Below are positions 19,774-64,000 of a stretch of DNA of 64,000 nucleotides, in pieces. This DNA is from Brachyhypopomus gauderio (taxonomy: Eukaryota; Chordata; Actinopteri; Gymnotiformes; Hypopomidae). The position numbers were made by a program, and so were the translations under genes. Numbering within the stretch: the first letter of the stretch is position 1; the number at the start of each line of letters is the position of its first letter. The notes under the pieces were generated by a model that saw only the letters and a list, made by a program, of their open reading frames with translations, had not been told where the DNA came from and did not search any database. The DNA lies in NCBI RefSeq assembly GCF_052324685.1, contig NW_027506877.1:2011749-2075748 (forward strand), read 5' to 3'.

Positions 19774-22696
19774 TCACATGTTTTTGGGTTTGGAAATGAC
19801 TCCGTCTGGATAGCGCTTCTTGAAGCGCGCTACCACATCAGGGTCCAGCAAATGAATTCCGTCCAGCTGATTTCCCAGTGTTACCCTGGAAACCAAAGAA
19901 AGGACAAAAGTGAGCAGCAATGAAGTAAGACGAAAAACAAAACACTGCAAGATCTCCATTTACGCCATTTACCAGTTTGGCTGGACATTATGGGGTCTCC
20001 CAAACAGTTCAATCTTTCTGGTGCCAGGAGATAACCGCTCAATCATGCCATATATCTCATCTGGTTTGTGACTGGTAGAACGTACCTATTATACAAATAA
20101 TTCACATTGCTTTATTAAAAAAAATTTTCCAGCTACACAGAGATGGCTAAAACCAACATATTCAAAAATAAAGAACAAACAGACTAATATATGTAAAAGG
20201 ATTACCACTGTGTTAGTACCTCTGCAACAATTACATCACAGTCTAAACCTCTGTTGAATCCTTGGGGATTTCCTTTCACCCCAACCTGAAAAAGAGAGAG
20301 AGAGGGTATTAAGATTAATACATTTGTTGGAGAGGCACGCACACACAAACACACACGCACCAGGCAGTGTTCTTTGCCATGGTTCAGCCAGTGTCCAGTC
20401 CTCCCAGTACGAATGATCCTCTGAAGCTGGTTGGTCTTCACCCAGATGATTTCATCCACACGCTCATAACTGAGCCCAGAGAGACATGCAGAGAGAGTAA
20501 AAATCAAAATGAAAGAAACAAAGCTATAAAGTTCTACGGAATTTCAACAGAGAGAAAACATTTCTTCCCATATAGACACACACTTACCCCCAGAGACTAA
20601 GACACTCTCTCCCAAGCTCCATAGCTCTGTAAATGACAATATGAAAATGTCAACAGGAATAGCAAATTCCAGCAAAATTTTGGAAGGTCTCAAGCGTGTG
20701 TTTTTGACTAAGGCTCTTCCTGAATAATCAGATATATCAATGACCTGTTTATTGATAGATTTTTATAATGCAAACAAATATTTATATTGCCTCAATTTTG
20801 GGGGAAAATACTGGCCTTCAAAGCAAAAAATCTTCCAGGACCACATTTCTACAAGTACAGAAACTAGACCAATGTGAATATTTAAACAATACAAATGTTT
20901 TTAAACAAAGTATGTAACCTGCTACATGAGAAATGCTGAAGTGGAACCTTAGATATGATTCATATCATTGAGTCATCCAAGGTAGATGTAAATTAAAATA
21001 TATACTTTAGCTAACTACTTTTATATCCAGATACCCAACACAAATAGCTTAGCTGCACTTTTGAAAACATCACTAGGTTTAGATTTCAACATCTAAAAAT
21101 GTGTGCATGACTTATGACTCTGAGGTGGAGCTGCCTATCAGTCAAACAGTGGACCTTATCAATACCTTCCAGTGACCCACAGGAACAGGAAACCATCATC
21201 CTGCAGAATAGGAATGTTGAGCTTCCTCATCTCGTCATCTGTTAGTGTTCCATATGGAAGTTCCATGTGAATATCCCAAGGAGGGTCGGCCATCACTACG
21301 GCAAACTTCCCCAAGATGGACACGTCCAGGTAACGAATATCACAGCAGATCCACTGAAGCAGATGCAAAAGACGGCAAAACCCATGAGGGGAAGTCATGA
21401 AGAGAACTCGCGGTATAGATTCAGCAAGGATGCATTACATTTGTTCAAGTAAAATTAATGGATACTGTTAAAATTACAGTGCAGTTGTCAGGTTGACATA
21501 ATTGCAGCATCATTGTCTAGTGAGCAATTTTCACTACATAATATTATATTCACTAGCTTGAGTGAGTACTGACATGAGGTCACCACAAAGAACGAGTTTA
21601 CATGCTGAACAGACACATTCCAACAGAGAACTTTAAATATTTGTTTTTTTCTCCTCCCATAAAGCCACTGAGGCTCTCTTACCTGAGCTGGAAACAATTT
21701 CCCCACATTGCTGTCTGCATCTGTGGCATGCAGGCCCAGCTCCGTAGCACCTGCCTGCGGTCCCAAGGCCCCGCCCTCAGCCTCCGGGGGACTATCAATC
21801 TCATAGTGCACGTATTTACAGGTGTCCATGTGAAAGCAGGTGTTCAAGAAAGAACAGTCTCCAAGACTCTCGTCTGTGTGCTTGTTTATGATTCGCCTGT
21901 GAAAATAACATGACTATTTAAGCCAATGGGGGTGGTTGACATGGGGGGGGGGGGGGGGGGGTGTCAATATGTCTAATGGAATCTCCCCCCCCCCCCCCAA
22001 ACAAAAAGATGAAGAGCATGCATATATAAGTGGTGGGCCGTTACCGGCATTCGATAATGTGATACTCTTATCAGGCGATATAAAAAACATCACCATTAAT
22101 CTATTCTTAAAGTTGGGTTGGGAGCTGGGTCAAAATAGGCAAGCAAACTATGATGACTTTCACCTTGATAGTTTAGCTCGGGTGTATTCCTAACCAAATT
22201 GCACAGTAGGGGGCGAGAACGAGTTTTCAAACCTGTGAATTACAAAGACTACCATACCACAACAAATCGCACATGTGTTTACATGGATGCAGCCACGAAG
22301 CCGCCAGGTTTGCTTCATGGAAAATTAATTTTTAAGCTTACTTATGGAGACATTGACGAGAATAAAGTTGTTTGCACCTCATGCAACGTGGAATTAGTTT
22401 ATTGTAGGAGTTCTACCAGTCTGAAGTACCATTTAAACGCAAAGCACCCGTTTGCTAATGCTGCTGATGCTGGGTCAAGCACTCATGCAGCCCAGTGGAA
22501 GAGTCGCCGCTGCCGAAAACAGGTTATAGGTGCATTGGTCTAATGCACCCTCTGTATTAAGAAACCCTATCTCATCTCAAAGACTGAATTTTAGTCATTA
22601 CTTGGGTAGCACGCATATTCTGAATGAGCCATTTTAATCTAGATTAATTTCAAGATTTCAGTGAGATTAGTCTAGATTTTTTTTATATATATATAG

Positions 22697-28771: not shown

Positions 28772-31005
28772 GCTTGTGGGAATTTAGGCTACCCCTGGAA
28801 TCACGATCACAGAATAGCACGTACACCCTCCTTTACACCAACTGGTCTTCATTAGGCATGTGTGCCAATTTTACAATTCATCAATTGCAATAAAACAATA
28901 TTATGTTCCAAAGCAATAAGAACTGATGTTATTATCCATTAGCAAGGCTAAAACTGCAGGATCATTATTACACAGTGGCATAGGAAAAAAAAGTAGGCTA
29001 CAAAAACACCCACAGAGTAATGAAAGTGTCTCGCATTACACCTGAGGGAGTAAGTAGATCCTCAGTAACAGAGGAATCCAAAGTGTAGGCAGAACATGTC
29101 AATAACAGAAAAAAAACATTGAGCACAAATTTCTAAATCAATAAATAATAACAACAAAAAAACCTTTTCGCCCAAAAATGTTTTTAGTTTTCCCCCATAT
29201 GAACAGTGTATATTAGTACTAGTCTTTTCACTCACTCTGCAGACTCATACATTTCAGTTGCAGTGTCAAAGTTGTAGCCCTATAGATTATTTAAACAGAC
29301 CTATAGGTTATTTATGACAGATAATGAGTTTCAATCATACCCAAAATAAAACAGCACAAGAAAAAAGAAACAACAAAAAAAAAAACCCCTGAACATCTCG
29401 ATCAACACTTTTGTAACATTAAAGGCATACTGGGAGGGAAACAAGACCACCAGTAATAAAGGGAGTGGTGAGAAAAGACCCGCTACACCCTTCTCTACGC
29501 TGGATAAACAAAGCAAACGGGATCCTACTACCAACCTGCAATATATTGGTTGAGGAGTGAAGGAACAGCCAGCATTAACTTTTTTTTTTTTTTTTTACAA
29601 ACATTCAATTATCTTCTGCATGTAAATACTCATATAACATACAATCATAAATCAAAATGTGCCATGTTGTTTTAATGCTGGACCACACTTTGTATATACC
29701 CAATTTCTCAGATGGTCCAAAATGAAAGTTCAAATTACTCTTTCCCTTAATTTCCGTGGTAACTGAGCTCTAGGACGTCTACCTCTGTATCGTTCCACTT
29801 ACTACAGCAAAATCTTAACATTTCCCTCACTATATACTACAGGTCACCGTCAAATCCTTTTCCTCAGAGCAAGTTTACATCATGATCACATCATGTTACA
29901 TCATATTACATCATGATCACATCACCCTGCATGATCTAAACGAGGGCACTCATATGCACTACGTTTCACACACTCGTATCTTACACACAACTCCTTCATT
30001 TAGCCGTGTTCGAACACGGCACACTCGTAAGATGATGGTCAAGGTTAGGACTTTGTTAGAAGCTAATCTCACATACACAAAGAACCTGACCAAGAACACA
30101 TCCACTTCTTTTCAGCACAGTGATCACAGCATAAAGAGAAAATGCTGGCATTAATATATCTAACCACCATAATTATCAAGCATCAAGGTTAAGTCTTAGG
30201 TACGCAGAAATGGTTGCGATATCTATTGAGGATAATGGCAAAGCTAAGTGTAACAATTATTCAATCACTGATATGTTGAACATGTCCTGCTGATCCCAAC
30301 AGGGTACGTCAGACATTAGTGTTCACAAATAACAGGCACTCTGTTGAGAGCAGCGAATCTAAGGGGATAATTTTTTATAACTGAGTGAGCAAAACATTAC
30401 GTGAAGCCTAAAGATTCCAGAACAGTCGATGAACCCACTACTGACAAATATCTGAATTAACGGATGTGCAGAATAAAGTCAAAAGACAATAAACAGAACG
30501 ATGCAGCTCCTTATTTCAATGACTACTGTTTTGATTTTAAAATTCAAGATTCAAGACAAAATCAATAAAGGTCTGTAATACAGATTTTGAGCAGTAGTGA
30601 GTCTTTGCTATAATGTACAAATGTACCCTGATGAAGCCCTAACCCTGTATAGTGAGCAACACACATGAACTAACAGCTATGCATGTGTGTAAACCCACAC
30701 AGGCATGCGCGTGCACACACAAACACACACCCCCTCCCACAATTTCCACCCAGGACACTTCAAGATGAATTTATATCCACCGTCCAACTCCCCATCTGTT
30801 TCATGACAGAGGAGAATACTATCTGACCATTTAAAACGGCACATGTAAAAAGATTTCAATCTTATTCATGGCTCTTTTTAATTATAACCCTGAGAATGAG
30901 AAATTCAGCTGTCCTTTATATGATTTGCTTTATATAATGTTAGGAAATATAGGGTAGTTTGACAATGGCAGAGCATCTGTATGAATAACCCTTACAGCAA
31001 ACAGC

Positions 31006-31093: not shown

Positions 31094-34000
31094 TTAGCAG
31101 TCAGTGGAGATTTTGGCTGAGAGGTCTTGGATTCGCCGAGCGCTGCAGGTCTTGCACAGAATATGGCCATCCAGAGGGTAGCATCCCCGGCCCTCTCCCT
31201 CAGACGAGAGAAGTAAGCCACACTCCTGAAATAAACCCAGAGATGCCCAGAGATGTTTCACTGCTTGTTGACATGCCTTTGGAAGGCGTGCATGTAACTC
31301 AGCTAGCGTGTAAGCTTTCGTAGAGTAAAAGAAGCACAGATCTCACCAAGAACTTCATCGGCGGTTTGTATGGGCGTACCTCACAAACGTAGCAGTTGAC
31401 ATGGAAACTGCGATCCAGAGCCACGATCCTCACAGTCTCCTCCTGGCCGGCCTCAGGCATGATGGGCTGGGCGCAAACAGAGCAACGTGGGGCAAACTTC
31501 CTGCCCACACAGGAAGTAGAGAAAGTGTTTAGAACTGTTTTTAAACACCCTGTCATACAAGCTTACCCTTCTTGATCTAAACAGGTGTAAAAGATACTTG
31601 CAACTTGCATTACAATCCCACTAAAACATCTCTCATTGGGTCTACATATACTCAACTATAACTAAAAGGAATCTGTGCTCTTCATAAATGTGATTTTTTG
31701 TTAAAAGCACCTTCGTTTTCTACTCAAACCCACAGAACCCTAAACCTTCAGAGCCACCGCGGTCACCTGTGGAAGTCCTCGATGCAGTGGATCTGCGAGG
31801 TGGCGTCCACGGTGAAGGGCACCCCATCCAGGCAGCAGCCACACACCACGCAGGTGAAGCAGCGCGGGTGGTAGGCCTTCCCCATCGCACGCAGGATACG
31901 GTCCAGGATGGGGCTGGAGCACTTAGAGCAGCGCTCCAGCGTGCTCTGCAGACGCACGCGAAGAAACGAGGAAGGGCACCAAGAGAGTCACTAACGAGAC
32001 TGTACGTGGTCATTAGAAACTATGACAGAAATTAATGTAAAACGCTGTAAAAGTTATACCGGAAAACAGCACAACGGAAAGGAAAAGAAAGTAAGGGACA
32101 TAAGAAAGCAACACAAAAACAAACAAACAAAGGTCAGCCAGGAGACTCACGATGTAACAGCTCTCACAGTAGCTCTTCTTGTCCAGTGCATAGAAAGGCT
32201 GGCCTCTGAGACAGGCATGGCACGTGATGCACGTGAAACACTCCACGTGGAACACTTGCTCCATCGCAATGCAGCCACTACCATCACCTACTACATTATC
32301 CCCACACCTCGCACAGCGGCCTGACGGAGGGGGAGGAACAAGAGCCTTTAATTAAACACTCTGCTCCTCATGAGCAAGTTTATGTTTTTGTGACTGAAGT
32401 AACAAACATTTTTTTTAAGGGTGTGAAAGACACTCACCAAAATATTCCTCTGTGGGGGGATGATTCATGTCATACACCAACTTCTTAGTGAGCCGATCTA
32501 ATTCCTCTTCTGGTCTCGACACTGGCCCCTGGTGGTCAAACACACCAAAAGCAACAATGAGCTAGCAAATTTTAACAAACAGTATTCTGGCGCTTTTATA
32601 TTCAACTCATCAGATTCTAATTACACTACAAAGACTACCCTAGATCATAATACAACTCAGATACCTGAGCATGGATGTCTAACCTGTGATTATGGTTGTC
32701 TGCTGTCTTTTGTGTGATATGAACGAACAAAAAGATCCTTATTAAATAATGTCTTCAGAGAGTTAACGTAAAGCACAATGAAAAGCATCTCATCTTCTGG
32801 GGATACCTCACCTTACTCGGCTGGTATGTTGCCCCCTGTTCTTGCCCTTTTTTCCCAGGCAGTCCCTGAATCCTGGATGGTGCCTGGACTCCCACCGAAG
32901 GGCCCTTATATGCCGCTGGATCTCCATGGGCCTCCTGGGCTGGAGGTGGTGGTGGCGGGTACCACCCCTGCGCTTCTGGGTAATGTGGGTGATCTTGTGG
33001 GGCAGGGCGGGAGGCATGCTGGCGGGGAGGGGGTGGGGTATAGGCCTGCTCCGCCCGTCGTCCGCTCTGGGAGTAGGTGACAGGCTGGGCGGTCTTAACC
33101 TGGACGCTGAAGCGCGGGCCGGTCGGCGTGGAGGCAGTGGTGTATGAGGCAGGCACCGGCTGAGGGTACGGTTTGTAGCCAGAGGACGGGGGCGCGTAGC
33201 TGTAATCAGGCTGGGGAGTGGAGGCGAAATGTGCAGCAGGATGGTACTGACTCTGGGGGTGAGGGGGGTAGCCCATGGTGGGTCTGGACTGGGACGACGG
33301 CCCCGTCTGGGTCAAGGAGGAGGGCTTGTAGCGTTCGCTGGTGAGGTGCTTGTTGTAAGGCACGTTGTCATACAGCTATGACAAGACAAGAATGAGCAGC
33401 TCATCAGAAATTCACTCTCAAGAGACTTTACATCTGTTCATTCATGTACCTCAGCTTCTTAGCCCACAAACATGACATTTGAAAACATTAAATTACAAAT
33501 GCCACAACAGAGTAATGAACAACAATGGTCATATTATTCCAACGCAAGTGAAGACTATAACCTCGTTATACCGCACTTCTACTCTTCTATATATTTTTGT
33601 CCAGTTTTGCTCTCCCTAGTCATTATATACTCAAAAGATTATAAAGCAACATGCAAGTTTTCAGAGCCAACATGGGGGAAAAAGGTTATCCTTAAGAGAG
33701 TTTCTAGAGCACCTGTGCGCTTGAGTTCGAAGGGTGACTGTCCAGGTCAGCCAGCATGCAGGTCAGAGAGTCTATCTCTGCATCAATGCTCGAGAGGTGT
33801 TTATCAGAGCCACGAACCTGCCACAAGAACATGGGTGCAGGCGGTCAAACAAAGTGGACATGTTGCCAAATGGCCAGAAGCTGAACTCAGCAGGATACGT
33901 TCAATCACTCCTATTGTTGCTTTGTTTTATACCATCAGAACATAGGATGTATATATGGGAGCATGCAAAGGCTTTGGACCCACTTCCTTCATGGTTCTTT

Positions 34001-43868: not shown

Positions 43869-44514
43869 GGTGAGTTTATGCTGGTTAATATGGATTTTTT
43901 CATTAAATGATCTGTTTTCCTCGCAGTTTGAATCTGAAAATTTTTGGTTATCAAAATGGGAAACAAATTATCAGATCATATAAAGTTAAAGTAAGATTTT
44001 TTTTACTTAGAATTTTGTGGTGTTAGGAAAAGACATTGCTTTTTTAATGAATGGATGAATGAATGGATGAATGATCATGTGAATGATCCCTTGTCAAATG
44101 CTATTCTAGCCTTTGGTCTCAATGGGATTTATATTCTATTTTGCTGCATCCTTATGAAAACCATGATTTGTTATATGCATTTATTCTGCATTTATGTAGA
44201 ACAGGATGTTCTTACACTGTTTTTTTTAAAAATAGTAAACCAACTGTGATATTAACAAAGGAGTTGACATGGTGCTTGATTACTGATGACGTCTCTGAAT
44301 GATATTTTATCTCCGTATTTTCAGGTACGAGTTGGGAGCTGGTCTCCCCAAGCAGATCCATCTAGAAGTTTCTCTTTTAACCGCAGGTCTAACTTCTCTT
44401 CTAAAGCAGGTAAGTTCCTGGTTTTGCATAAATATGCAACACTGCTCCATCAGTGCTGTTTAGACTGTCTTATCAAGTGTCTAATTAATCTTCCTCCAGC
44501 AGACAATAAGCACC

Positions 44515-48405
<3,891 letters not shown>

Positions 48406-53246: not shown

Positions 53247-56091
53247 GCCCTGCAGGCACAGCTGCATGTAATGCATATGGAGCACGCCCTGTTGTGATGA
53301 TGGGAGGCTTCCTGTCTGGACTGGGCCTCATTCTAGCTTCTCAGGCTGCAACACTCACACACCTGTATCTAACCATGGGAGTTATTTCAGGTTACTATTC
53401 ATGCATTCATTCATGCATTCATCCATTCACCCATTCATTCTTTTTGCTTTAAAATGTAAATTCATGAAACTGTGCGCAGATAACTGGAGTTATACGTCAC
53501 TGCTTGCTGTAGAACGGACAGTATCATAGACACATATGAACTGTTTCTATACAACATCTGCTTTTGTAACTGATACATTATTAATTTTCTAAAAGTTAAA
53601 ATAGCGTGGATTTGTTAGAATGTACTAGTGTTGTAAGATGTTCAATGTATAGTTACAATATGAATTCAAATTTAAATTCAAAATGATCTTGAATTACCTT
53701 TTTTTCTGGTCTTGGACTCTGTTATGGTCTTGAACTGGACTCTGGTCTGGTCTAGTCTGGTCTTGACCTAGACTTTGCTATGGTCTGGTCTTGTCTTGGT
53801 GTTGGTCTTGACCACCAGGGTGGTCTCCTCAACAACAAAATAGATGGCCAACTATTCTGTGTTCTTTGTCTTTCTCTAGGCACAGGCTGGGCTCTGGTGT
53901 TCACCCCTACCATAGCCTCTGTCATGCAGTATTTCACCTGCCGGCGCTCTCTGGCCATGGGCCTGGGCTTTACTGGTGTGGGCCTCTCATCTTTCGCCTT
54001 CTCCCCACTCTTCCAGTACCTGGTAGAGACCTACACCTGGCGAGGGGCCCTGCTCATCCTGGGGGGCCTCAGCCTCAATATAGTGGCCTGTGGTGCCCTC
54101 ATTCGACCCCTCGGAGCCCCCAGAGGCATGGCTACGGTAACAATATTGTTTGGAAATTAGCTTTGTGGAAGTGTTGGTTTGAAAGTCAGGGGAAATTTAA
54201 CACCAGCATGCTTTTGGAAATCTGAGACTAGTGTAGCGTTTAGTGTAATTTCAATGTATTTTTGTTTAAAGAGTTATTGGACGTGTGGTCAGATACACAC
54301 AAACAGAAGTCTCGGCAGTCTGTATGCTGACTTCAAATTTCATATCAGCAGTTCACTGATAACTTTCACACTTGTTCTAATAATTAGTATTAATACTTAC
54401 ACATGGAAATGGGGACTGAACAATAAGAATCCAGCATATAGCTATGATCACAATTAATGCAATAGTATAAGTTTGTAGAAACATAATCTTGCACAAAACC
54501 GAGTGATCAGGTTTGATTTCTCTACAGTGTGAAGGGATAACATTTACGTTTAATACATGCTTGTCTTCATGAAAATAGGCCAAGCATCAACAGAAAACTG
54601 AATATAATTGCAAATCTGCACCACTATTGGGCACAGTTTTTGTTTAGTATATTATACATTTTCACAAATAATACAGAAACAAGTCACTGGATGTTGTATC
54701 TTTGGTAATAATATTTTTAGGATCAGGTGTAATGTAAATACTAAATATAAATTTTAAGCAAAATTGTAATCCCTGATTTTACTTCTCTCACACTAATCCC
54801 CTTTTCTCCTTTCCCAGGCTGAATGCTCCAGCGGTCCCACTGGCTGTGTCTCTCTCATTTCCCGCGCCTGTGAGTACTTCGAGCTGTCGCTCCTCTCACG
54901 GCGAGGATTCCTCACCTACAGCTTAGCCGTCACCTGCTTCAACGCGGGCTACTTCATCCCCTACGTCCACCTGGTGGCCCACAGCCGGCTGGTCGGCTTC
55001 TCCGAGTACCAGGCCGCCTTTCTCATCTCTGCCACCGGCGTGACCGACATCGTGGGGCGCGTGGTGTCCGGCTGGGCCTCGGACCTGCGCCGCGTGCGCT
55101 TGCTCCACATGCTGGCGATCTGGTCGGGCTTGTTGGGGCTTTTCCTGCCGCTGCTGCCGGTCTGCTCTCTCGGGCGCAACTACGGTGGCCTGCTGGTGGT
55201 CAGCCTGGCGTACGGATTCTGCGCCGGGGCCATGACGCCCCTGGTGTTTGCGGTGGTGCCTGAGATCGTGGGAATGGAACGCATGCTGGGGGCGCTTGGC
55301 CTGCTGCAGCTGATCGAGAGCACGGGGGGGCTTCTGGGAGCGCCGCTGTCGGGTAAGGAACGAATGTGGCTGCTGGTCGAGGCATTAACATAACCTCATA
55401 ACACACAACACTTAGTCTGCTTTTAAGTGCTGTACGCCCAAGGTGCTTCACATCGGCTTGGCTGGGGGATTTTAATAGCTTTAGGTGTCCGTTACCGTGC
55501 CTAGAACTAATCAGAATGTTTGTGCCCTGAAATGAAACCCTGCTAAACATGAGATGATGGTAATCTTACCGAATAGTTTGGGCTCATTCAGAACTGCATC
55601 CTGGAGGTGATAAGAAACATGGTTATCTGGTCTGGTATTGCGACCAGAGAACCATGTGCTGTGCTGGGAATTGTAGTCATTGCTGTGCTGAGTATAGTGG
55701 TCATTGCAGTGCTGCTGTCCTTTTTTATCTCCTCATAGGCTGGTTGAAGGACCTCACAGGATCTTACACAGGCTCTTTTGTGGTAGCTGGTGGGTTCCTC
55801 ATCTTGGGCACCATGATAATGGCGACACTTCCCCGTTTTTGGTCCTGCGCCAATTTCCCACCTCCGTCACCAAAGAAGAAGGTCAAAAATGAGTGTGTAG
55901 AAGACAAGTTACTCAAACAGCCTTTATCCTCAGACTCTGACCAGGAGAAATCCCAGTCCATAGATGACATGTCTTTCTCAGGAACAGATTTAGAAACAAA
56001 TGCACATCAGAATCATTCAACAGAACCAGTAACGGAAGTGGGTCAGACAACACATTCTGCAGATAGGACAGAAGGTGAAGTTGCGTGCTGA
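52903..56091 (+). CDS. slc16a13: slc16a13: monocarboxylate transporter 13-like protein
   Basis: Five exons join in phase: 52903-53140, 53247-53390, 53880-54136, 54818-55352 and 55739-56091. They give 508 residues (human about 426). It is a 12-pass major-facilitator protein of the SLC16 family in the plasma or Golgi membrane. MCT13 is not well characterised, and its substrate is probably a monocarboxylate. The family signature [10 protein letters not shown] is at about 21-30 before the first membrane segment. [73 protein letters not shown] and [19 protein letters not shown] follow in family order. The match is closer to MCT13 than to MCT11. The cytoplasmic tail after about residue 430 is longer and polar. 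The start at 52903 is 17 bases inside the exon. Exon 2's acceptor is a (TG)n-TAG. Its position after bcl6b repeats the human 17p13 order. Confidence 0.88.
53212..53244. repeat. (TG)n microsatellite forming the 3' splice site of slc16a13 exon 2
   Basis: About 16 TG units run into TAG at the exon boundary (53246/53247). Confidence 0.9.
53705..53816. repeat. Irregular (GGTCT)-type simple repeat before slc16a13 exon 3
   Basis: Variants of 'tggtcttggactctg' and 'ggtctggtct' are repeated about ten times. The tract ends about 65 bases before the exon. Confidence 0.75.
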
Positions 56092-61157: not shown

Positions 61158-63385
61158 GTGCGATACACACACATACACAGAGACACTGACATAAGGACAA
61201 GCTGCTGATGCAAAAGACATCTTGTTGCATAACTTTAAATATCTGGCGCTAGTAAGTAAATAGGAATAGGACAAGTGGCACTCCAAAACAAGGAAAAATT
61301 ATTAAATTAAAAGCATCAAGTTTAAATGGTCTCTTTAAATGATTCTGAAATTTGGAGAAAGTGCGCCATTATCCATTTAGTAATAAAAAAAAAAAAAGAG
61401 CGCCAAATATTTAAGCACTTCTGAAATCAAATGACAAATAAGCAAGGGCCAGAGCACAAAGCCTAATCATCAGCCCTGTCCAGCAGACGTCCAGCACGAC
61501 GTTTCTAGCACTGTGTTTTCTGAAAACTACATTCCCCATCGTAATATTTTCACTGATAACAGAGTAAGCAAAAGCCATCCTCTGTTGGCATATAAACCTG
61601 ATTTTGTTTTGTTTACATGAAATACACAGAAGGTACATGAACATGACCCTATATACATTGACTATTTACATATGTACTGCATATTAAACATGAATGCACT
61701 TTACATTATATTACACAGGAACACAGGATTATGATCATATAAATATTCTTAATTTACAGTAGCTTCCTACATGGCTGGAGAATTATTTCAATCTTGATTG
61801 ATTACAATCTTATGTTTTGTTGCCTGTTGTCTGATCTTTGGTGTTTTAATAGAGATTAATAGAAACATATGTTTTATTTTTAACATTGTCTCTTTTGTGG
61901 TGTTTATGAAGAGGTTTGCCACATGTTGACTAAAGCAGTGTTTCTCCACCCAAGCCTCAGGATACACTGTGTGGTACATCTTTTTGCTCTCTCTAGCTCT
62001 CAAAAGCACCTGACCAGTCAAAAACACTAAATACGTGGTACAAAGCACTCGGAACAAAAGTTAGAGCAAAACCATGGACCGTTTGGTTAGATCCACGGAC
62101 TGGGTTTGAAAACACTGCGCTAAACATAACAGAATATTATATACAGCAAAACAATACTTTTCATTTCCAATTAACTGCGTGTGTTGTGCTAAAATATCCA
62201 ATTTGTCCCTCCTAACCAAAGTTCGTGGTTGCTCAGTGCCTAAGGTGGTTCTTAAATGCCTGAAAGCTTTTCTTTGTCTGTTCAATCAGGTCCCCGGATC
62301 CACCCCCCCCAGCACAACCCAGCCCTTCTGAGTGACCTGATTGGGCAAATCCATCCATCTCCCGCATCTCCTTGTTCATCTTGGCTATTCGAAGGCTGTG
62401 AAGAAAAAAAAGGCAAAGCATACTCACTGATCAGATTTACGGTCAACAGTCCCTGAATTGCATGGACTAAAAAAAACCTCCTTTACCGCCGTTTATGTTC
62501 TAAAGCATAATATACTCACAGAGTAACGATATCAGCGTTGGCGTTTTCTACAGCGATGGTGATGGGGTCCTTCTTGTTGATGTCCTTCGCATTATAGTCA
62601 GCTCCTCTCTTTAGAAACAGGCACACCAACCTGTAACACACACACACACACACACACACAGCAGTCAATTAGGAAGAACTGTGCATACAGCAGCTCCATT
62701 CCATGTTGCTTAGTTTGACAGTGGCTGTGGTGGTGCCCGCGTGTTGGTGTGCAGGTGGGGGTCTGGTGTTGGTGTGCAGGTGGCTACCCCGTATGTCCCA
62801 GTATTGTAGCGTGGTGTAAGGGTCTGGTGTTGGTGTGCAGGTGGCTACCCCGTATGTCCCAGTATTGTAGCGTGGTGTAAGGGTCTGGTGTTGGTGTGCA
62901 GGTGGCTACCCCGTATGTCCCAGTATTGTAGCGTGGTGTAAGGGTCTGGTGTTGGTGTGCAGGTGGCTACCCCGTATGTCCCAGTATTGTAGCGTGGTGT
63001 AAGGGTCTGGTGTTGGTGTGCAGGTGGCTACCCCGTATGTCCCAGTATTGTAGCGTGGTGTAAGGGTCTGGTGTTGGTGTGCAGGTGGCTACCCCGTATG
63101 TCCCAGTATTGTAGCGTGGTGTAAGGGTCTGGTGTTGGTGTGCAGGTGGCTACCCCGTATGTCCCAGTATTGTAGCGTGGTGTAAGGGTCTGGTGTTGGT
63201 GTGCAGGTGGCTACCCCGTATGTCCCAGTATTGTAGCGTGGTGTAAGGGTCTGGTGTTGGTGTGCAGGTGGCTACCCCGTATGTCCCAGTATTGTAGCGT
63301 GGTGTAAGGGTCCTCTTCCATCTGAGTCAGCCTGGTTGACGTTAGCACCGTTCTGCAGCAGGAACTCACACGCTGCCAGAGAATT
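60181..63385 (-). CDS. acap1: acap1: ACAP-type ArfGAP with ankyrin repeats, C-terminal four exons (partial)
   Basis: Four - strand exons join in phase: 63385-63276, 62630-62520, 62395-62337 and 60281-60181. They code the last 126 residues; the rest lies right of the window. ACAP proteins stimulate GTP hydrolysis by ARF6 at endosomes and plasma membrane through BAR, PH and ArfGAP domains, and end in ankyrin repeats. Here NSLAACEFLLQNGANVNQ, GRGPLHHATILGHTG and VCLFLKRGADYNAKD are ankyrin repeats. ADIVTLLRIAKMNKEMRE follows, then GDETYHDIFRDFSQMASHNP and the end KLKRRSADIKIP. The end resembles ACAP1 more than ACAP2 or ACAP3, and the neighbours bcl6b and slc16a13 fit the human 17p13 ACAP1 region. 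The donor of the third exon is a choice: CAG/GTCACT at 62337 gives the family-like length, while another in-phase GT further on would add about ten residues. The first exon's tail and donor are tandemly multiplied. Confidence 0.85.
60545..60636. repeat. (TA)n tract within an A-run/T-run hairpin, in the last acap1 intron region
   Basis: An A run followed by CTA, about 28 TA units, TAG and a T run form a self-complementary arm. More TA units and a short CA stretch follow. Confidence 0.85.
61111..61155. repeat. (CA)n microsatellite in the last acap1 intron
   Basis: About 22 CA units in intronic sequence. Confidence 0.9.
62761..63310 (-). repeat. 61-bp minisatellite, nine perfect copies, carrying an acap1 exon end and its splice donor
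   Basis: Nine identical 61-base units stand head to tail. On the acap1 strand each unit is 35 bases of exon (CCC TTA CAC CAC GCT then ACA ATA CTG GGA, CAT ACG GG; PLHHATILGHTG), the GTAGCC donor and 20 further intronic bases ending CAACACCAGA. The copy nearest 63310 is the real end of the exon that begins at 63385; the other eight lie in the intron. A partial variant of the intronic half lies at about 62741-62760. Complete identity between units indicates recent expansion or sequence homogenisation. Confidence 0.95.
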
Positions 63386-63451
63386 CTGCACAGAGAGACA
63401 CATTAAGAACCCTCACTTTCATATGATTAAAAATATGACATGCATGTACGG

Positions 63452-63544
<93 letters not shown>

Positions 63545-64000
63545 CTCTCTCAGTAAGGCATCTATAGACACAAGCATTGTCTATAGTACACTACACATTT
63601 TCACACAAACATCAGTACTACTTCCTGTTACAACACATTTACAAGTTCTGCTTATATGAGGCGGGCTCTACATGGTCCTGTCAAAACACTCAAACCCATC
63701 TAGAAACACATACTGAACAGACTTATACAAATACATACTCAAGATACTTATACAAACACGTACTTAAGAGACTTATACAAACATGTACTCAAGAGACTTA
63801 TACAAACATACTCAAGAAACCTAAACACATACTAAAGTGACTTATACAAACACGTACTCAAGAGACTTATACAAACACGTACTCAAGAGACTTATACAAA
63901 CACGTACTCAAGAGACTTATACAAACACGTACTCAAGAGACTTATGCTCTATACACACTCACCACTCACTAACCTCCTATACTCCCTACACACTCACCAC
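63386..64000. other. acap1 intron at the right edge, with tandem repeats
   Basis: A (CA)n tract of about 44 units lies at 63454-63541. A 25-bp tandem array ('acttatacaaacacgtactc' plus 'aagag') follows at about 63718-63945 with roughly nine copies, the right-hand ones almost identical. No exon was recognised, and the next upstream acap1 exon is beyond the window. Confidence 0.75.

Follow-up and report, generated by a model that had tools for sequence, protein, structure and literature searches.

The window analysed here, a 64,000-nt stretch of the Brachyhypopomus gauderio genome (contig NW_027506877.1), carries on its minus strand the 3′ part of an ACAP gene, in which a 61-bp minisatellite takes in the end of an ankyrin exon together with its 5′ splice site (Table 1). 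Reading frames are open through exons A, B and C of this gene. A 120-residue translation (part of exon A, with B and C) matched human ACAP1 chains with 190 bits and ACAP2 with 170 bits, in both cases over one full-length stretch, in a comparison that covered 31 rows and was without any ACAP3 chain; six rows of designed proteins and ankyrins outranked the human ACAP1 chains, on bits summed over repeats. Judged by these scores, in rows from which ACAP3 is absent, the gene is closer to ACAP1 than to ACAP2, so that acap1, the name given to it in an earlier sequence-only reading of the window, is the better one. Exon-like frames in the neighbourhood of acap1 carry BTB, C2H2 and MFS domains and are reminiscent of BCL6B and SLC16A, which lie near ACAP1 on human 17p13.1.

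Table 1 Features of the acap1 region and of its paralogs. Positions are those of the window unless another stretch is named; a slash marks the end of an exon.
Feature	Position	Strand	Description
Exon-like frame	21162-21434		MT-A70 domain
Exon-like frame	32016-32351		LIM domain
Exon-like frame	44485-44751		BTB domain
Exon-like frame	47781-48155		C2H2 domain
Exon-like frame	54797-55390		MFS domain
Exon C	62630-62520	-	LVCLFLKRGAD...ADIVTL
Intron B	62631-63275	-	645 nt; donors 2-9 inside
Additional 18-nt copy of intronic CCACCTGCACACCAACAC from the unit	62741-62758	-	Directly after the 61-bp array
61-bp minisatellite	62759-63312	-	Nine identical units and a GACCC tail; exact period-61 run
In-frame TAG	63272-63274	-	Met at once beyond donor 1
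Exon B	63385-63276	-	110 nt, ankyrin exon, NSLAACEF...GHTG; end within repeat unit 1, end position shared by four paralogs
25-bp minisatellite	63704-63945	.	9.9 copies, 86%; in intron A, away from both its splice sites
Intron A	64415-63386	-	Next intron upstream of exon B; runs past the window end
35-bp minisatellite	63943-64418 (window part 63943-64000; rest in flank L014)	-	13.7 copies, 95%
40-bp array, C14 ACAP paralog	L006:1388-1517		3.2 copies, 98%; holds the exon B acceptor and first exon bases
Exon B donor, C12 paralog			CACAGG/GTGAGC
Exon B donor, C21 paralog			CACGGG/GTGTGT
Exon B donor, C14 paralog			CACAGG/GTACAC
Exon B donor, C1 paralog			CACAGG/GTGAGC

Four other ACAP copies are present in the genome (on contigs C12, C21, C14 and C1), and in all four an intron lies at the codon and phase where acap1 exon B ends. 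Because this position is common to the paralogs, intron B is, by homology, old and the donor at 63276 real, in agreement with the exon end proposed earlier. With lengths computed from the exon B start at 63385 and the acceptor base at 62631, intron B comes to 157 nt once eight extra units are subtracted. The exon B donor of the C14 paralog leads directly into a CA microsatellite, GG/GTACACAC... (stretch L006, about 1607).

The array is 554 bp long (9 × 61 + 5) and is scored by TRF at 9.1 copies with a 100% match (score 1108). The sequence-only reading had recognized a real repeat but had drawn it too narrowly, at 62761..63310, and had assigned 35 nt of exon to each unit; by the coordinates, a unit comprises 37 nt of the exon B end and 24 nt of intron, including the 5′ splice site. 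Its claim of nine identical donors holds, with one unit sequence in nine of nine copies and last exon bases at 63276, 63215, 63154, 63093, 63032, 62971, 62910, 62849 and 62788. The motif GGGGTAGCC occurs nine times in the array and once more in the window, at 28793, and a 32-bp piece spanning the junction gave nine matches (with at most three mismatches) against none in 100 shuffles. A dispersed repeat family was rejected, as the array DNA was found at one place in the 796-Mb assembly by a search that ignores very common words and scores the best candidates only. Each unit holds one GT and also a CACCAG, preceded by a tract that is poor in T as judged by eye, unscored, on which ground the unit was rejected as a cryptic exon. 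Predicted folding of one, two and three units gave -7.1, -17.8 and -28.3 kcal/mol, values that are without a shuffled control and tell nothing.

An assembly artefact, with too many copies or an array that is in part invented, would fit the identity of all copies and the presence of exactly 2500 N in the flank 2.7 kb away, beside a 19-bp minisatellite, since such a run means either that the assembly was hard here or that the sequence has been withheld. We nevertheless consider it very unlikely: 554 bp is well inside a typical long read, the array borders are clean on both sides, and the assembly kept the variant units of an imperfect 35-bp array close by. The N run itself (L014; 66016-68515 when window numbering is continued into the flank) may hide the PH and ArfGAP exons of acap1, unless it is a withheld stretch.

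Reading through donor 1 gives CAT ACG GGG TAG, and the immediate stop means that the protein is kept by donor 1 only, which had been claimed from the letters alone and which the frame confirms. Were a later donor used, this stop would lie upstream of the new junction, by 57 nt for donor 2 and by 118-484 nt for donors 3-9. Nonsense-mediated decay obeys a 50-55-nt rule; on these distances, decay is plausible for transcripts of donors 3-9 and borderline for those of donor 2. The array could then serve as a length-dependent brake, in which donors 2-9 vie with donor 1 and, through premature stop and decay, longer alleles yield less ACAP1. Such a role would draw on the identity of all nine donors, on stop-to-junction distances that make decay plausible from donor 2 or 3, and on a human repeat of the same build, in CBS, which a table of PMC1395315 lists with raised homocysteine. 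An effect need not mean a function, however, and arrays at other splice sites argue for no special target, so that we regard the brake as unlikely.

One of these other arrays lies at the neighbouring intron. The true exon A donor (last base 64416) is copy 1 of the 35-bp array, which has 14 units, 13 with GTG/GTGAGT and one with GTG/CTGAGT. The position of this donor is shared by both paralogs in which it is visible (CAGGGG/GTGAGC and CAGGGC/GTGAGT), and reading through it gives V S V stop. The 19-bp minisatellite, situated in another acap1 intron, starts near a donor; it was excluded from the splice-site count given below, as its unit lacks a GT on the gene strand.

Donor strength was assessed with a hand-entered vertebrate donor matrix, on which the acap1 exon B donor (GGG/GTAGCC) scores 1.37 of a possible 12.71, the paralog exon B donors 2.06, 6.15, 8.43 and 8.43, and the intron A donor 9.45; because the real exon B donor is outscored by 15 further GT sites within 62600-63390, the matrix is a blunt guide. 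On the strength of the 1.37 score, nine strong donors were rejected as a description of the array. Predicted U1 pairing is -5.9 kcal/mol for the acap1 site, compared with -5.6 for C21, -5.0 for C14, -9.0 for both C12 and C1 and -11.8 for the consensus. As this pairing is not below that of C21 or C14, the donor, weak by the matrix, is not extreme within the ACAP family. The extra donors might conceivably help, with eight downstream U1 sites strengthening recognition of an exon end whose true donor is weak while donor 1 still does the joining; intronic U1-binding enhancers are known, reportedly from the work of McCullough and Berget in 2000, and donor 1 stands under all of its paralogs on the matrix. 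Against this are the bluntness of that matrix, a predicted pairing no weaker than that of C21 and C14, although it falls short of C12, C1 and the consensus, and the strong donors of the intron A array, which mean that weakness is not the common factor. We therefore hold a helping role to be highly improbable.

The acceptor array in the C14 paralog shows that the phenomenon is not confined to acap1, and the idea of an acap1-only event was rejected. Across the five ACAP genes, 3 of the 23 splice sites visible at exons A to C in the loci examined (five acceptors and five donors for each of exons B and C, plus three A donors) lie within arrays with a period of at least 15 and at least 2.5 copies. 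For background, 20 stretches of 10 kb from the one genome, not selected for genes, were searched for periods of 15-200 and at least three copies; they contain 23 arrays covering 17,926 of 200,000 bases (9.0%), or 4.2% when one all-array 10-kb stretch is dropped. The dropped stretch (L020:1-10000, contig C2) consists entirely of a 27-bp tandem array of about 366 copies at 83%. The binomial probability of at least 3 in 23 is 0.07 to 0.34 for backgrounds between 4.2% and 9.0%, and that of at least 2 in 22, leaving out the index site, 0.24 to 0.60, figures to be read with thresholds that differ slightly, sites that are not independent and ACAP genes picked because of the finding. Since 3 of 23 is not clearly above background, splice junctions seem, in this small sample, to be struck about as often as other DNA. 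The acap1 case also suggests that splice sites are poorly shielded from minisatellite growth in this genome. Among the six sampled arrays with at least nine copies, none is 100% identical, whereas the acap1 61-bp units are identical in nine of nine.

On the basis of these observations, we propose, with a probability of roughly two in three, that the 61-bp array is a young and probably neutral splice-junction minisatellite in a repeat-rich genome, formed when the junction was duplicated and then expanded, with donor 1 mostly used. The array opens in the exon, at the GACCC of AGAG-GACCC-TTACACC, and closes exactly nine units on in the intron, at the GACCC of CACCA-GACCC-CCACC. A replication or repair event between this 5-base match, GACCC in the exon (AGAGGACCC) and again in the intron 61 bp downstream (CCAGACCC), may have duplicated the exon end and its donor; a first duplication between two such copies 61 bp apart would account for both array borders. 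Unequal exchange could then have grown the array to nine identical units, taking intron B from about 157 nt to its present 645 nt. The matching boundaries and the perfect identity are plain in the DNA; the duplication and the exchange are events that we infer from them. The 18-nt copy that follows the array is, with the GACCC tail, a marker of the old intron sequence, and, as it copies part of the intronic stretch of the unit, a small 25-bp repeat was probably present in intron B beforehand. That all nine units are identical suggests a recent spread of the array and makes variable copy number between individuals a fair expectation.

In the RNA, the spliceosome would meet nine donors of one strength, which is low on the matrix. 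Donor 1 probably wins in most transcripts, because only there is the full upstream exon adjacent and the exon of normal size (110 nt, compared with 171-598 nt from the later donors); use of donors 2-9 would give RNA with the stop, the removal of which would cost part of the yield. A similar process may have struck the neighbouring intron A donor and the C14 paralog acceptor, and these two arrays, with minisatellites common in the genome, indicate that splice sites are swept in without special purpose. Neutral expansion accordingly fits better than a dedicated brake.

Several considerations weigh against neutrality. Classical splicing work on pairs of equal donors reportedly found that the site closer to the acceptor is often chosen. 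Donor 9 defines a compact 157-nt intron; were it preferred, most of the RNA would be lost and the array selected against. SRSF1 is reported to shift site choice to the intron-proximal donor and hnRNP A1 to the intron-distal one (PMC5585400). Two consecutive donors in one gene could be a hint of something specific, and the 3 of 23 sites, at the lower background (0.07), leave room for a mild excess. A brake and a U1-recruiting aid are both possible. A more far-reaching proposal would be that junctions in this fish lineage are repeatedly captured by minisatellites, that the arrays set splicing efficiency, and that acap1 output is tied to two linked length-variable arrays (nine weak and 13 strong copies), the weak one acting through multiple U1 binding as decoy or enhancer; we think this quite unlikely, and retain the young, probably neutral array as our preferred reading.

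Tandem units with splice signals have a precedent in introns to which Zhuo and others, in 2007, reportedly ascribed an origin in tandem arrays. The acap1 unit differs in having one GT and no convincing acceptor by eye, and for that reason we propose no new intron. In human segmental duplications, internal tandem repeats at exon-intron boundaries are reported together with 27 intron modifications and alternative splicing patterns (PMC2812944); these repeats and the acap1 array are alike minisatellites at exon-intron boundaries, but the human cases concern recent paralogs and new introns, whereas the acap1 intron is old and its position conserved. Among fish, polymorphic intronic minisatellites are known from the sea bream growth hormone gene (PMC3045353). 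In open-licence literature queried on related topics, at the level of titles and the starts of abstracts, no report was found of arrays at two successive donors of one gene. The second donor array, in intron A, and the paralog acceptor array extend this case of a known kind.

The gene offers, in effect, a natural version of the classical splicing experiment, with many identical donors of which the first alone gives protein, and with a strong-donor version next door. The lengths of its alleles across a population would be a direct test of which site the spliceosome favours, that on the exon side or that on the intron side.

The closest known system is human CBS, in which a VNTR is said, by Lievers in 2001, to be associated with reduced CBS activity. 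That repeat is given as c.1444_1467+7(16_21), a 31-bp unit of 24 exonic and 7 intronic nt in 16-21 copies, in PMC2630376, and is placed at exon 13-intron 13 in the table of PMC1395315, where its activity column begins with 'down' in a row that holds four variants and is ambiguous in layout. The CBS and acap1 units are both an exon end with its 5′ splice site, repeated many times in a conserved gene; they differ in that CBS has polymorphic arrays of 16-21 31-bp units with single-base differences, and the fish gene nine perfect copies of 61 bp (37 + 24 nt). In both acap1 arrays the founder copy is a real junction, present in 9 copies at intron B and 13.7 at intron A. By analogy, the acap1 array would belong to a known kind, the splice-junction VNTR of the CBS type.
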